A stretch of 64,000 nt of DNA from Hyphomicrobiales bacterium (GTDB lineage: Bacteria; Pseudomonadota; Alphaproteobacteria; Rhizobiales; RI-29). Numbering within the stretch: the stretch's first letter is position 1; every line of letters begins with the position of its first letter. The stretch is taken from contig WGLQ01000019.1 in assembly GCA_016125495.1 (NCBI GenBank), positions 1-64,000 on the forward strand, written 5' to 3'. The position numbers and the translations under genes were made by a program. Shown here piece after piece: positions 21,122-35,994 of the stretch. The notes below the pieces were generated by a model. That model was not told the DNA's origin. It saw only the letters and a list, made by a program, of their open reading frames with translations, and made no database searches.

Positions 21122-21616
21122 ATGTCGATCGACAACATCATCATGCCGATGCTTTCGGTGCCCTTCTTCGAGGGCCTCGCCATCTCGCAGCTCAAGTCGC
21201 TGGCGGTCGGCGCCGAACGGCTGGTCTTCAACGATGGGCAAGTCCTGATCCGTGAGGGCGCCAGCGGCAACGCCGCTTACCTCGTCGTCGACGGCAAGGT
21301 TCTGGCCTACCACGGAGCGGCGCCGGGACCGGATGCCAAGGTGCATGGTGTCGGGACGATGCTGGCCGAGATCGCAATGGTCACCGAAACCAACCACGTC
21401 GTCACGGTTCGCGCCCTCGGCAAAGTGCGCGTTCTCGGCTTTTCGCGGCACATGATGCATGCCTACTTCGCCGAGGATCCGGGGCTGGCGCAGCATTTCC
21501 TCGAAGTGCTGACACACCGGCTGAAGGAAATCAGCGACGTGCTGCGCGAGACCGACGCCATGCTCGGCGCAGACGCGGAACCCGCGGCTCCGACACCAAA
21601 TCGACGGGTCGCCTGA
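21122..21616 (+). CDS. stand-alone cyclic nucleotide-binding domain protein
   Basis: A 164-residue protein with the Crp-type beta-roll (about 14-115) and a C-terminal helix, but no DNA-binding domain. Typical elements are PFFEGLAISQLKSLAVGAERLVF, VLIREGASGNAAYLVVDGKV and LGFSRHMMHAYF (each a segment of the fold). The phosphate-binding cassette is degenerate: AEIAMVTETNHVVTV keeps Glu83 but has His92 where the cNMP-binding Arg is expected. Ligand binding is therefore doubtful. Such proteins are frequent in Hyphomicrobiales without known function. It lies 153 bases after the TIR gene on the same strand and converges with the candidate small RNA and lolA. Confidence 0.82.
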   Translation: MSIDNIIMPMLSVPFFEGLAISQLKSLAVGAERLVFNDGQVLIREGASGNAAYLVVDGKVLAYHGAAPGPDAKVHGVGTMLAEIAMVTETNHVVTVRALGKVRVLGFSRHMMHAYFAEDPGLAQHFLEVLTHRLKEISDVLRETDAMLGADAEPAAPTPNRRVA

Positions 21617-21698
21617 AGGCGGCTGGCCCACCATACCCTGTCACCGTGGCCCAGTGTGGTCTCACCAACGGCCCGGACATCGAACCCCGATCGCAAAC

Positions 21699-21732
21699 AA
21701 AAAAGCGCCCAACCAAAGACTTGGTCGGGCGC
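21699..21732 (-). terminator. intrinsic terminator downstream of lolA
   Basis: GCGCCC (21705-21710) pairs with GGGCGC (21727-21732) and ACCAA with TTGGT inside it, with one mismatch and a four-base loop. On the minus strand the stem is followed by six T. It ends the lolA transcript, the candidate small RNA, or both. Confidence 0.92.
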
Positions 21733-21838
21733 TCATCTGCGCTTCAGCGCATGCGCCGGGAGGGAAGCCGACGCTGCTCGCGGTGCTCGCCGGCTAGACG
21801 GGGGGGCGTGGCCGGATTACGAGAGCACCACTTGCTCA
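21699..21838 (-). ncRNA. candidate structured small RNA (or structured lolA 3' UTR)
   Basis: On the minus strand this stretch folds into a series of local hairpins ending in a strong terminator. From 5' to 3': GAGCA/TGCTC (21823-21837); a 7-bp stem GCGTCGG/CCGGCGC with the pyrimidine-rich loop CTTCCCTC (21753-21774); TGCGC/GCGCA closing a four-base loop (21738-21751); and the terminator. A sigma-70-like promoter precedes it (TTGACC at 21865-21870, TAAAGT at 21843-21848, 16-base spacer). C/U-rich loops complementary to Shine-Dalgarno sites are a known feature of alphaproteobacterial small RNAs. No family match is claimed. It may instead be part of the lolA transcript, whose stop codon is 65 bases upstream. 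Confidence 0.5.
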
Positions 21839-21842
21839 TACC

Positions 21843-21870
21843 ACTTTAACAGTATTCCGGAACAGGTCAA
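21843..21870 (-). promoter_or_regulatory. possible sigma-70-type promoter for the candidate small RNA
   Basis: On the minus strand TTGACC (21865-21870) and TAAAGT (21843-21848) are 16 bases apart, between the lolA stop codon and the hairpin series. The -35 box is good; the -10 box matches the consensus only partly. Confidence 0.35.
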
Positions 21871-21900: not shown

Positions 21901-22647
21901 TCAACGCTGATTCGCGTGGGCGTTCTGCAGGCCGACATCAGACGGCTTGAAAAGGTTCGGATCGGCCGGCTCGCCCAACGCCAGACCCGCCACCTCGATA
22001 CGCGTATCGAGCCCCTGGGCATCGGTCACGACCCATTCGCGCAGGGCCAACGCGTTGTCCGCGCCACGATCGAAGACGAGGCGCAAACGACCATTGCTGG
22101 CGTTCTCCTTGTCGATGATCGTCAGGTTGACCCCGGTCGGCGCCATGGCGATATCCGCGATCTCGGCGTCGCGAAGAACATCGACCGTTTCAGCGAGTAG
22201 GATGCGGAACGGCGTCGAGGACAGCGAATAGCGCTCGACGGTTTCGAGTTCATGGTCCTCGATGGAAAGATAGGTTCCATCCGATAGGATGACCATCTTG
22301 CTCGGCGGCGAGTAGACGAAACGGAACCGACCCGGCCGGCTGACGAAAAACCTGCCGCGAACCCTCTGCTGCTGAGCATCCGTCTGAACGAACTTGCCGT
22401 TCATGTGCTGGATGCCATTGAAGTAGCCGTTGACATCCTCGATCAACTTCAACTCTTCCGCCGAGAACGTCCGCCCGATGACGCCGCCGGGCTGGACCTC
22501 TGCCTGCCAGCCGGAGCCGGCGCCCACGGCATTGACGGCAGGCGCGGTCGGCTGCGTCTGGGTCTGGGCCTGCGCGGGCGCAATAGGCGGCAGGGCAACG
22601 CAGGTCAAGAGGCCGAGCGCCGCAAAGAAGCTGGTCCTGAACACCAT
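21901..22647 (-). CDS. lolA: LolA family outer-membrane lipoprotein carrier
   Basis: A 248-residue periplasmic protein. LolA accepts lipoproteins from LolCDE and carries them across the periplasm. The first 28 residues are a signal peptide (MVFRTSFFAALGLLTCVALP, cleavage after AQA). A low-complexity Gln/Thr/Pro stretch follows, then the LolA half-barrel: DVNGYFNGIQHMNGKFVQT, RGRFFVSRPGRFRFVYSPP, SDGTYLSIEDHELETVERY, PFRILL and a C-terminal LREWVVTDAQGLDTRIEV. The start at 22647 is chosen because it opens the signal peptide; 55 further upstream residues of frame are not protein-like. It follows ftsK by 174 bases, an order often seen in Hyphomicrobiales. Confidence 0.9.
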   Translation of the reverse strand: MVFRTSFFAALGLLTCVALPPIAPAQAQTQTQPTAPAVNAVGAGSGWQAEVQPGGVIGRTFSAEELKLIEDVNGYFNGIQHMNGKFVQTDAQQQRVRGRFFVSRPGRFRFVYSPPSKMVILSDGTYLSIEDHELETVERYSLSSTPFRILLAETVDVLRDAEIADIAMAPTGVNLTIIDKENASNGRLRLVFDRGADNALALREWVVTDAQGLDTRIEVAGLALGEPADPNLFKPSDVGLQNAHANQR

Positions 22648-22821
22648 CTCATCCCCCTGAATGGAAACTCCGGCAGGCCTCGGTCGAGGCGTCCGAACAT
22701 GGCACGGTTCCGCGCGACTCGCCGCGACAGCCGATGCCCACACCCGGCAAAGTATGTGCCGCGCATCTCGCCCGCAACCGTCGGCGCCGGGTATCCCCGC
22801 ATTATGGGGCAATTGAGGCCG

Positions 22822-25458
22822 TTACGGCGCGTGACCGAGAACTTCCCGGCGGCCGGCGGCATTCGGGCCGGTGACGAGGCCGGCTTGTTCCATCTGCTGG
22901 ACCAGCGTCGAAGCGCGCCCGTAACCGATCGAAAGACGGCGCTGAAGATAGCTGGTCGAGACACGGCCGTCACGCAGCACCATGGCCACCGCGCGATCGT
23001 AGAGGTCGTCGGCGCGCTCCACCGCTCCAGCGGTGCCGGACGAGGCCGGCGCGGTGGCCGCAAGCAGGGCCGGGACATAACGTGCCTCGCCCTGTGACGC
23101 GAGGAACGACGTGACCGCCTCGATCTCCTCCTCGCCGACGAACGGTCCGTGCAGGCGCACGAATTCGCCTCCACCCGCGCTGAACAGCATGTCACCGGCT
23201 CCGAGTAGCTGCTCGGCGCCCTGCTGGCCGAGCACGGTGCGGCTGTCGGCGGCACTCGCCACCTTGAAGCTCAACCGGCTCGGCAGGTTGGCCTTGATGA
23301 CCCCGGTGACGACATCGACACTCGGGCGCTGTGTTGCCGCCACGAGGTGGATGCCGGCGGCGCGGGCCATCTGAGCCAAACGCTGAACGGCGGCCTCGAA
23401 CTCCTTGCCGGCGGTCAGAACGAGATCGGCCATCTCATCGATGACGATGACGATGTAGGGCATCGCCTCGAGGTCGAGATTCTCGTTCTCGAACACGGGC
23501 TGACCGTCGGCGCGATCGAAGCCGACCTGTACGGTGCGGTTGAGAGCCCGACCCATTCGGCGGGCGTGGGCGATCCGGTTGTTGTAGACCTTGATGTTGC
23601 GCACGCCGAGGCTCGCCATGCGCTTGTAGCGCTCCTCCATCTCCCCGACCGCCCACTGCAGAGCCGATACGGCCACGCGGGCATCGGTGACGACGGGGCA
23701 GAGCAGGTGCGGAATGCCGTTGTAGGCCGAAAGCTCCAACATCTTGGGGTCGATCAGCAGCAAGCGACAGGCGTCCGGCGTCAGACGGTAGAGCAGCGAC
23801 AGGATCATGGCGTTGAGGCCGACCGACTTGCCGGAGCCGGTGGTGCCGGCAACGAGCAGATGCGGCATCTGCGCAAGATCGACGACCACGGGTTCGCCGT
23901 CGATCGCACGGCCGAGCGCGATCGGAAGCGCTGCGTCGGTGTGGCGGAAGGACTTCGATTCGAACATCTCGCGCAGCACGACAGGCTCACGGCGCACGTT
24001 CGGCAGTTCGATGCCGATTGCATTGCGGCCGGGAACAGTGGCGACGCGCGCCACCGCGACACTCATGGAGCGGGCGATGTCGTCGGAAAGGCCGATGACG
24101 CGCGAGGCCTTCACGCCGCGCTGCGGCTCGAGTTCATAGAGTGTGACCACGGGGCCGGGCCGCACGTTCACGATGCTGCCCTTGATGCCGTAGTCCTTGA
24201 GGACATCCTCGAGCAATCGCGAGTTGCCACGCAGGACGCTCTGCGTGAATTCGGCCCCGAGTTTGGCGCCGCGCCCCTTTGCCAGGAGCTGGATCGACGG
24301 CAAGCGGTGATCGTTCGCGGGTGTAGCGGCAGCCGCCGAGAGGGCCTCGACCAGCACGGGATCGGCGAGGGGAGCGTCGTTGATCGGCAAGGTCGGCGAT
24401 GTCGTGCGCGAGGCAGGCGCGAAACGGCGGGCAAGGTCGCGGCCGCGCTCGTCGAGGGAGTTCGAGGTGTGGCGGCTCGACCCGACCCCGCCGAGCATGG
24501 CGGCGCCGGCGAAGACACCCCCGGCGACGGCGGCCCCCGCCAGGGCATTCGACGGGTCGTCCAATTCGGATGGAGATGGCACGTCGCTGAAACGAGGCTC
24601 GCTGCGTGCGCCGGCATCACGTCCCGACGGGCCGCCGGGGCGGGCCGAGGCGGCGGTCGCCGCGCCGAATTCCGCCCCCGCAGCGAGAGCGGCGTCGGCG
24701 GCGGCGGTGAGACCACCGATGCCGGACGCACCGCGACCGGCGGCCGCAGGGGCAGCGGATCGGAAGCGAGGCCTCAGGACCCAAGCGAGAGGGGCGAGCG
24801 AGGCGAGCGCGAGGCCCGCGACCATGGCGAGGCCGCGCGGGCGCTCGAGGGTATCGTCGCTCGGCTCGAAGGCACGGCGCAGGTCCTGAAGCTGAATGCC
24901 GAAGGCGCGCACGTAGATCGCCGCCCCGGCCCAGGCCATCAGCAGCCCCGCGGCGATCGGCCCGAACGTCGGATCGACGGTAACCGCGAGGCCCGTCATG
25001 GCGAGCGCCGCCGTGTCGCCGGCAAGGCCACCGAAGCCGTGGTGCAGCGGCCAGGCCTCGAGCCGAGGCAAACCCGAGAACGCGGCCGCCAGCAGGCCCG
25101 TACCGACTGGCCAGAGGATCAGCTTGCGTGGCAGATTGCGCACGTGCTTGCGCCGATAGAGATCATGCCCCCAGGTCGCGATCGGCAGAACGAAGAGCAC
25201 CGCCGCCAGACCGAGCGTCTGGAAGAGGAGGTCCGCAACGAGCGCTCCCGGTGCGCCGAGCAGGTTGTGAGCGAGTTCGGAGGGGCCGCCGTGGAGGCTC
25301 GGATCGGTCGCCGACCAGGTGGCGATCGCGAGCCAGATCGCGATGGCGGCGGCCATGAGGGCGAGGCCCGTGCCCTTCAAGGACCAGGTTCTGACCAGTT
25401 CCTCGATGTCATCGCGGTCGATGACTTCGGCATTCTTGCCGCCAGTTTCCGACGCCAT
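22822..25458 (-). CDS. ftsK: DNA translocase FtsK
   Basis: An 878-residue septum-located motor that pumps chromosome termini during division and activates XerCD at dif. Four membrane helices occupy about residues 25-195. A low-complexity Ala/Gly/Pro linker follows (about 215-360). The RecA-like motor has Walker A VAGTTGSGKSVGLNAM near 540, Walker B YIVIVIDEMADLV, and the C-terminal winged-helix gamma domain (about the last 65 residues, DGRVSTSYLQRRLSIGYGRA) that reads KOPS sequences. The linker is short compared with enterobacterial FtsK but usual for alphaproteobacteria. It begins 15 bases after the aminotransferase gene ends, so the two are probably co-transcribed. Confidence 0.96.
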   Translation of the reverse strand: MASETGGKNAEVIDRDDIEELVRTWSLKGTGLALMAAAIAIWLAIATWSATDPSLHGGPSELAHNLLGAPGALVADLLFQTLGLAAVLFVLPIATWGHDLYRRKHVRNLPRKLILWPVGTGLLAAAFSGLPRLEAWPLHHGFGGLAGDTAALAMTGLAVTVDPTFGPIAAGLLMAWAGAAIYVRAFGIQLQDLRRAFEPSDDTLERPRGLAMVAGLALASLAPLAWVLRPRFRSAAPAAAGRGASGIGGLTAAADAALAAGAEFGAATAASARPGGPSGRDAGARSEPRFSDVPSPSELDDPSNALAGAAVAGGVFAGAAMLGGVGSSRHTSNSLDERGRDLARRFAPASRTTSPTLPINDAPLADPVLVEALSAAAATPANDHRLPSIQLLAKGRGAKLGAEFTQSVLRGNSRLLEDVLKDYGIKGSIVNVRPGPVVTLYELEPQRGVKASRVIGLSDDIARSMSVAVARVATVPGRNAIGIELPNVRREPVVLREMFESKSFRHTDAALPIALGRAIDGEPVVVDLAQMPHLLVAGTTGSGKSVGLNAMILSLLYRLTPDACRLLLIDPKMLELSAYNGIPHLLCPVVTDARVAVSALQWAVGEMEERYKRMASLGVRNIKVYNNRIAHARRMGRALNRTVQVGFDRADGQPVFENENLDLEAMPYIVIVIDEMADLVLTAGKEFEAAVQRLAQMARAAGIHLVAATQRPSVDVVTGVIKANLPSRLSFKVASAADSRTVLGQQGAEQLLGAGDMLFSAGGGEFVRLHGPFVGEEEIEAVTSFLASQGEARYVPALLAATAPASSGTAGAVERADDLYDRAVAMVLRDGRVSTSYLQRRLSIGYGRASTLVQQMEQAGLVTGPNAAGRREVLGHAP

Positions 25459-35919: not shown

Positions 35920-35994
35920 GCGGGCGTAGCTCAGGGGTAGAGCATTACCTTGCCAAGGTAAGGGTCGTGAGTTCGAATCTCATCGCCCGCTCCA
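35920..35994 (+). tRNA. tRNA-Gly (anticodon GCC)
   Basis: A full cloverleaf can be drawn: acceptor GCGGGCG/CGCCCGC, D arm GCTC/GAGC, anticodon arm TTACC-TTGCCAA-GGTAA with anticodon GCC at 35952-35954, T arm GTGAG-TTCGAAT-CTCAT, discriminator T and an encoded CCA at 35992-35994. It is single, with no integrase or mobile element beside it. Confidence 0.97.

Follow-up and report, generated by a model that had tools for sequence, protein, structure and literature searches.

The lolA locus and the promoter of the RNA

The window, that is, the whole 64,000-nucleotide stretch of DNA analysed, carries on its minus strand a conserved ftsK gene (22822..25458; identified by Pfam FtsK domains and synteny) upstream of lolA (21901..22812; Pfam LolA, 7.2e-27), given here as its longest ORF, the real start of which probably lies further in. 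On the same strand, lolA is the upstream neighbor of a small RNA of ~139 nt (21697..21836), which we recognize by its fold, its covariation, and its single copy in the genome and which is likely to belong to the RusT family (see below); the earlier note had put its length at ~135. The RNA is faced by a convergent gene for a cNMP-binding protein (21122..21616, plus strand; Pfam cNMP_binding, 3.6e-12), which occupies the place of xthA in many relatives.

The promoter that the earlier note had claimed at 21843..21870 of the minus strand is present as a sigma-70-like combination of a -35 hexamer TTGACC (21870-21865), a 16-nt spacer, and a -10 hexamer TAAAGT (21848-21843). It has 9/12 consensus matches, and such sites occur 1 per kb, versus 0.2 in shuffled sequences; the transcript would start near 21836. 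Among the homologs described below, a -35/-10 hexamer pair (TTG-type/xA-type, at least 8/12 matches) was recovered in 61 of 108, against 7.4 in shuffles, with the -10 element mostly 36 to 38 nt ahead of the C-tract of the first stem-loop, a nearly fixed spacing. This conserved promoter is an argument for an independent transcript, and it bears on the other origin that the earlier note had offered, namely, a structured lolA 3' UTR that is cut from the lolA mRNA and has no transcription of its own. The shared strand, the distance of only ~30 nt from the lolA stop to the promoter, and the lack of any visible terminator between lolA and the RNA are all compatible with such processing. However, we regard it as unlikely, because in most homologs the promoter pair keeps its nearly fixed distance from the C-tract of SL1; moreover, RusT of Caulobacter, at 118 nt, is reported to be transcribed from a promoter of its own that NtrX controls (PMC11005374). 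Read-through from lolA into an independently transcribed RNA may still take place.

Structure and covariation of the RNA

The stretch from 21836 to 21697 folds at -72.6 kcal/mol (z = -5.5), with 0/200 shuffles equally stable, and it retains a z of -3.1 once the terminator is removed. The fold comprises four stem-loops, all on the minus strand. The largest, SL1 (21776..21835), is a long 5' hairpin in which 11/11 helix pairs show two-sided changes among 51 sequences; its apical loop CCACGCCCCCCCGUCUAG (21794..21811) carries a run of seven C, is more conserved than any other part of the RNA, and is a predicted base-pairing site, given the conservation of the C-run and a receptor complement in the same genome. 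SL2 (21753..21774) has a 7-bp stem with one G-U and the loop CUUCCCUC (21767-21760), exactly as the earlier note had described it; 6/7 of its pairs covary, 99.7% of its cells are paired, and its loop is likewise a predicted base-pairing site on account of its widely kept C/U motif. SL3 (21738..21751) is a small UGCGC-UGAA-GCGCA hairpin with 91% of cells paired and little covariation. SL4 (21697..21734) is the anticipated strong intrinsic terminator, with a stem of 14 pairs (21734-21703), of which 9/11 scored pairs covary, and a T-run that gives the terminal U-tract. Thus, the number of elements foreseen, three local hairpins and a terminator, holds, but the first of them is the long hairpin 21835-21776, whose poly-C loop had been missed.

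We evaluated this structure with RNAalifold on 51 nonredundant sequences, which recovered the same stems. When scored over its 37 pairs in these sequences, the structure shows two-sided changes at 29 pairs (223 such cells) and has 92.9% of cells paired, versus 35 to 42% when the partners are slid against each other. Given this covariation, the pairing above the slid control, and the promoter at a fixed distance, the fold is not due to chance. The compensatory changes that the earlier note had proposed to look for in three stems are thus found in SL1, SL2, and the terminator but scarcely in SL3. Its contrary case, homologous spacers that keep only the terminator, is not what we observe, since SL1, SL2, and SL3 accompany the terminator in many families.

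In Hyphomicrobium loci, including L027, L040, and L045, the loop of the terminator (CUCCCCCCGG) is rich in C as well and would constitute a third C-rich loop. Six loci (L038, L043, L087, L101, L112, and L121) keep SL1 and SL2 and have no intrinsic terminator within 95 nt.

Phyletic range and synteny

In several further families of the order, blastn searches over 61 genomes matched the RNA along its 3' two thirds, mostly downstream of ftsK-lolA; the short matches L010-L024 are mostly coincidences. Exact pattern matching to the loops of SL1 and SL2 retrieved 112 stretches from named genomes, of which Hyphomicrobium, Filomicrobium, Rhodomicrobium, Methyloceanibacter, Methyloligella, and related MAGs account for nearly all; matches L080, L090, and L126 were discarded as coincidences. 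The loop letters are invariant in this set partly because it was selected by the pattern; the stems were not so selected. Two apparent double copies (L025/L087 and L030/L094) look identical and are perhaps assembly duplicates.

A covariance model recovered a single copy in the genome of the window (99.6 bits; next best, 16.4) and matches in 119 of 297 genomes of the order, with weaker matches in other alphaproteobacterial orders. Outside the Alphaproteobacteria it found two matches only, both at ~27 bits, and we therefore took ~27 bits as the noise level. For 68 matches of at least 35 bits (L142-L189 and L201-L220), the flanks were examined; the weak matches L190-L200, which apart from L193 and L194 lack synteny, are left out of this set. 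By our count, lolA and/or xthA stands at the locus in 64 of the 68, the syntenic order being ftsK-lolA-[RNA]-xthA. Three matches at the lolA locus (L185, L187, and L194) measure 117 to 120 nt, near the length of RusT, and may be Caulobacterales copies.

Among 36 model matches outside the training set, the SL1 C-run is kept in 33 and the SL2 CCCCU/CCCUC motif in 30, both counts coming from a model trained on sequences with such loops. In L201, L205, L206, and L207, from two families of the order, SL2 has a short loop without CCCUC and SL1 keeps CCCCCCGUC; in these four, the two proposed pairing sites have come apart naturally. At the level of sequence, the conservation of the SL1 poly-C loop equals or exceeds that of the SL2 CU loop.

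Predicted targets of the loops

We scanned 19 RNA-bearing genomes for ACGGGGGG 3 to 10 nt ahead of an ATG and translated 80 such places. The recurrent or plausible genes among them are envelope genes: as read from the sequence, TonB-dependent receptors (L250, L256, L259, and L267), an outer-membrane protein (L292), and lipoproteins (L272 and L275). We therefore surveyed genes with a Plug domain, and the Pfam Plug search recovered all four of the receptor places. The scan also yielded a small 99-aa exported protein (MQ[VI][FL]K...AADCT), present in two Hyphomicrobium-type genomes (L253 and L258), with UUACGGGGGG at its ribosome site; its first 60 residues have no Pfam match.

The survey comprised 87 Plug-domain genes from RNA-bearing genomes and 46 from relatives in the order without a model match. 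A run of at least five G within 22 nt upstream of an in-frame ATG is present in 27/87 of the former versus 2/46 of the latter (p = 1.6e-4), a comparison in which the RNA-negative relatives come from other families and the genomes within each group are related. The same test against a background of ORFs drawn from lolA neighborhoods gave 27/87 versus 36/296 (p = 7e-5). The G-run precedes the ATG in 0/28 LysR genes of the RNA-bearing genomes and in 5/25 TolC-type genes (the TolC-type outer-membrane genes with such start regions are L501, L511, L512, L516, and L517). GGAGG showed no enrichment in the start regions of the 87 receptor genes.

More specific motifs complementary to either loop (G[AG]GGGA for SL2; CGGGGGG or GGGGGGC for SL1), which were picked after the first matches, occur in 24/87 receptor genes versus 0/46 in the relatives without the RNA, 0/28 LysR genes, and 0/25 TolC-type genes; the reversed SL2 motif occurs in 3/87 receptor genes. 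This agrees, as far as motif counts can tell, with the suggestion in the earlier note that a C/U-rich loop of the RNA is complementary to GGGAG-type ribosome sites. Duplex energies computed with the full SL1 loop separated receptors from controls no better than those of the reversed loop, so the target signal is confined to the C/G runs. In the genome of the window, one of the two receptor genes has AAGGGGGGCGTAACC upstream of its likely GTG start, complementary to ACGCCCCCC of the SL1 loop of this species (-24.0 kcal/mol), a score equaled by 2 of 43 ORFs of the window. Taken together, the loops appear to fit the mRNAs of outer-membrane receptors, not Shine-Dalgarno sites at large.

Relationship to RusT and proposed mode of action

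RusT of Caulobacter crescentus (CCNA_R0199) is a 118-nt RNA with four stem-loops, encoded between lolA and xth, that is induced by iron starvation from its own promoter under NtrYX control and binds Hfq at its third stem-loop (PMC11005374). It represses several TonB-dependent receptors, OmpW, and others by means of a seed in SL2, which was confirmed by compensatory point mutations for two targets, and its homologs were reported in Caulobacteraceae only (PMC11005374). The window RNA resembles it in lying directly after lolA on the same strand, with xthA on the far side in most relatives; in its four stem-loops, the last being a terminator with a terminal U-tract, and similar length; in its conserved SL2 loop, which stands in the hairpin order where RusT has its tested seed; and in its predicted target class, the TonB-dependent receptors. 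The receptor signal was found independently of, and before, the comparison with RusT. The differences are the cNMP-binding gene that stands in the window where RusT has xth, the SL1 C-tract, which is conserved as well as or better than SL2, and the presence of kin across the order and in other orders.

On the strength of synteny and architecture, we file the window RNA under the RusT family. The full reading, that it belongs to the RusT family and represses the mRNAs of outer-membrane receptors, as its locus, architecture, and target class indicate, is in our judgment probable. The CcsR-type likeness drawn in the earlier note gives way to this assignment by locus and architecture, while its central proposal of a small RNA with its own promoter is supported by the conserved promoter, the fold, and the covariation. 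By locus, architecture, and target class rather than by alignment, the window RNA is probably a further member of an sRNA family that was described only recently. The sequence data point to a range of the family far beyond the published one and to a second pairing loop. A wider proposal, to which we would give even chances, is that RusT, far from being peculiar to Caulobacter, is an ancient regulator that controls receptors of the outer membrane in alphaproteobacteria and has stayed at lolA-xthA across several orders. In this proposal, the SL1 C-tract is a second, more conserved pairing site, and its complement has spread among the start regions of receptor genes in all genomes that retain the RNA.

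We envisage that the RNA would be made from its own promoter just past lolA, end at its own terminator, and fold into the four stem-loops. The SL1 C-tract and the SL2 CUUCCCUC loop would then pair with G-rich ribosome-binding sites, foremost those of TonB-dependent receptor mRNAs, and thereby block translation or trigger decay of the message. Hfq would probably be held at SL3 and the U-tract, SL3 being the Hfq site in RusT, and a link of the window RNA to iron is conceivable by the same analogy.

The C-rich loops could serve, not for pairing with mRNAs, but as a decoy or sponge for a protein or the ribosome, in keeping with the conservation of loop letters beyond the C-tract (GUC and UAG) and the two or three C-rich loops per molecule. 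We consider this quite improbable, as complementary sites are present in receptor mRNAs and the pairing of RusT with mRNAs has been established by compensatory point mutations for two targets (PMC11005374). There is even less reason to favor a broad anti-Shine-Dalgarno RNA of the CcsR or alphaR8 type with many unrelated mRNAs as its targets: UCCCUC within the SL2 loop is indeed near anti-Shine-Dalgarno sequences, and alphaR8 RNAs share UUUCCUCCCU, but the receptor set is enriched in G-runs, not in GGAGG-type sites, alphaR8 adjoins the FGase gene, and the window RNA has no Rfam match at curated thresholds. That the region is a mere terminator with chance hairpins is refuted, its chance being negligible, because SL1 and SL2 covary across many families, even though much of the folding energy comes from the terminator alone.

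To our knowledge, few alphaproteobacterial sRNAs stay at one locus across orders. The present analysis gives an sRNA described for one family a structure model and a class-wide range, and it offers a testable code of C-tract loops against the G-run ribosome sites of outer-membrane receptors. Such an RNA, which probably tunes the cell surface in many alphaproteobacteria, would suit the study of how an sRNA evolves jointly with a large set of paralogous targets, and the family is Rfam-ready for the annotation of many methylotrophs and hyphomicrobia.

Other known RNAs

Several further alphaproteobacterial RNAs (EcpR1, GsrN, PmaR, alphaR8/SisA, and ChvR) were set aside by locus or sequence. The alphaR8/MmgR/SisA-D RNAs likewise have a C/U-rich seed (UUUCCUCCCU) and repress several mRNAs posttranscriptionally but are located at the FGase gene and present the seed in an internal single-stranded stretch; the CcsR/alphaR8 group (suhB, MmgR) is ruled out by the different alphaR8 locus and the lack of an Rfam match. 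GsrN of Caulobacter shares a 5' loop with six C and G-rich targets but is sigma-T dependent, activates katG, and lies beside ecfG/phyR in most relatives; this ecfG/nepR/phyR locus, where relatives other than C. crescentus typically carry it, differs from the lolA locus of the window. ChvR, also of Caulobacter, represses a TonB-dependent receptor through its stem-loops, as is predicted for the window RNA, but is C. crescentus-specific, Hfq independent, and encoded upstream of recF/gyrB. EcpR1 of Sinorhizobium is similarly broadly conserved in Rhizobiales and has structured loops but lies by divK-pleD, carries the loop UCCGCCGCAUCU, and has cell-cycle targets. The lolA locus of the RNA is not mentioned in Reinkensmeier's Rhizobiales families or in the Bradyrhizobium and Azospirillum sRNA papers.

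At the Rfam gathering score, neither the window RNA nor 20 remote homologs matched any family, and weak matches to anti-hemB, the PyrG leader terminator, and SNORA77 were dismissed as chance or terminator likeness. The sole Rfam match of the window at the curated threshold is a tRNA gene at 35920-35991 on the plus strand.
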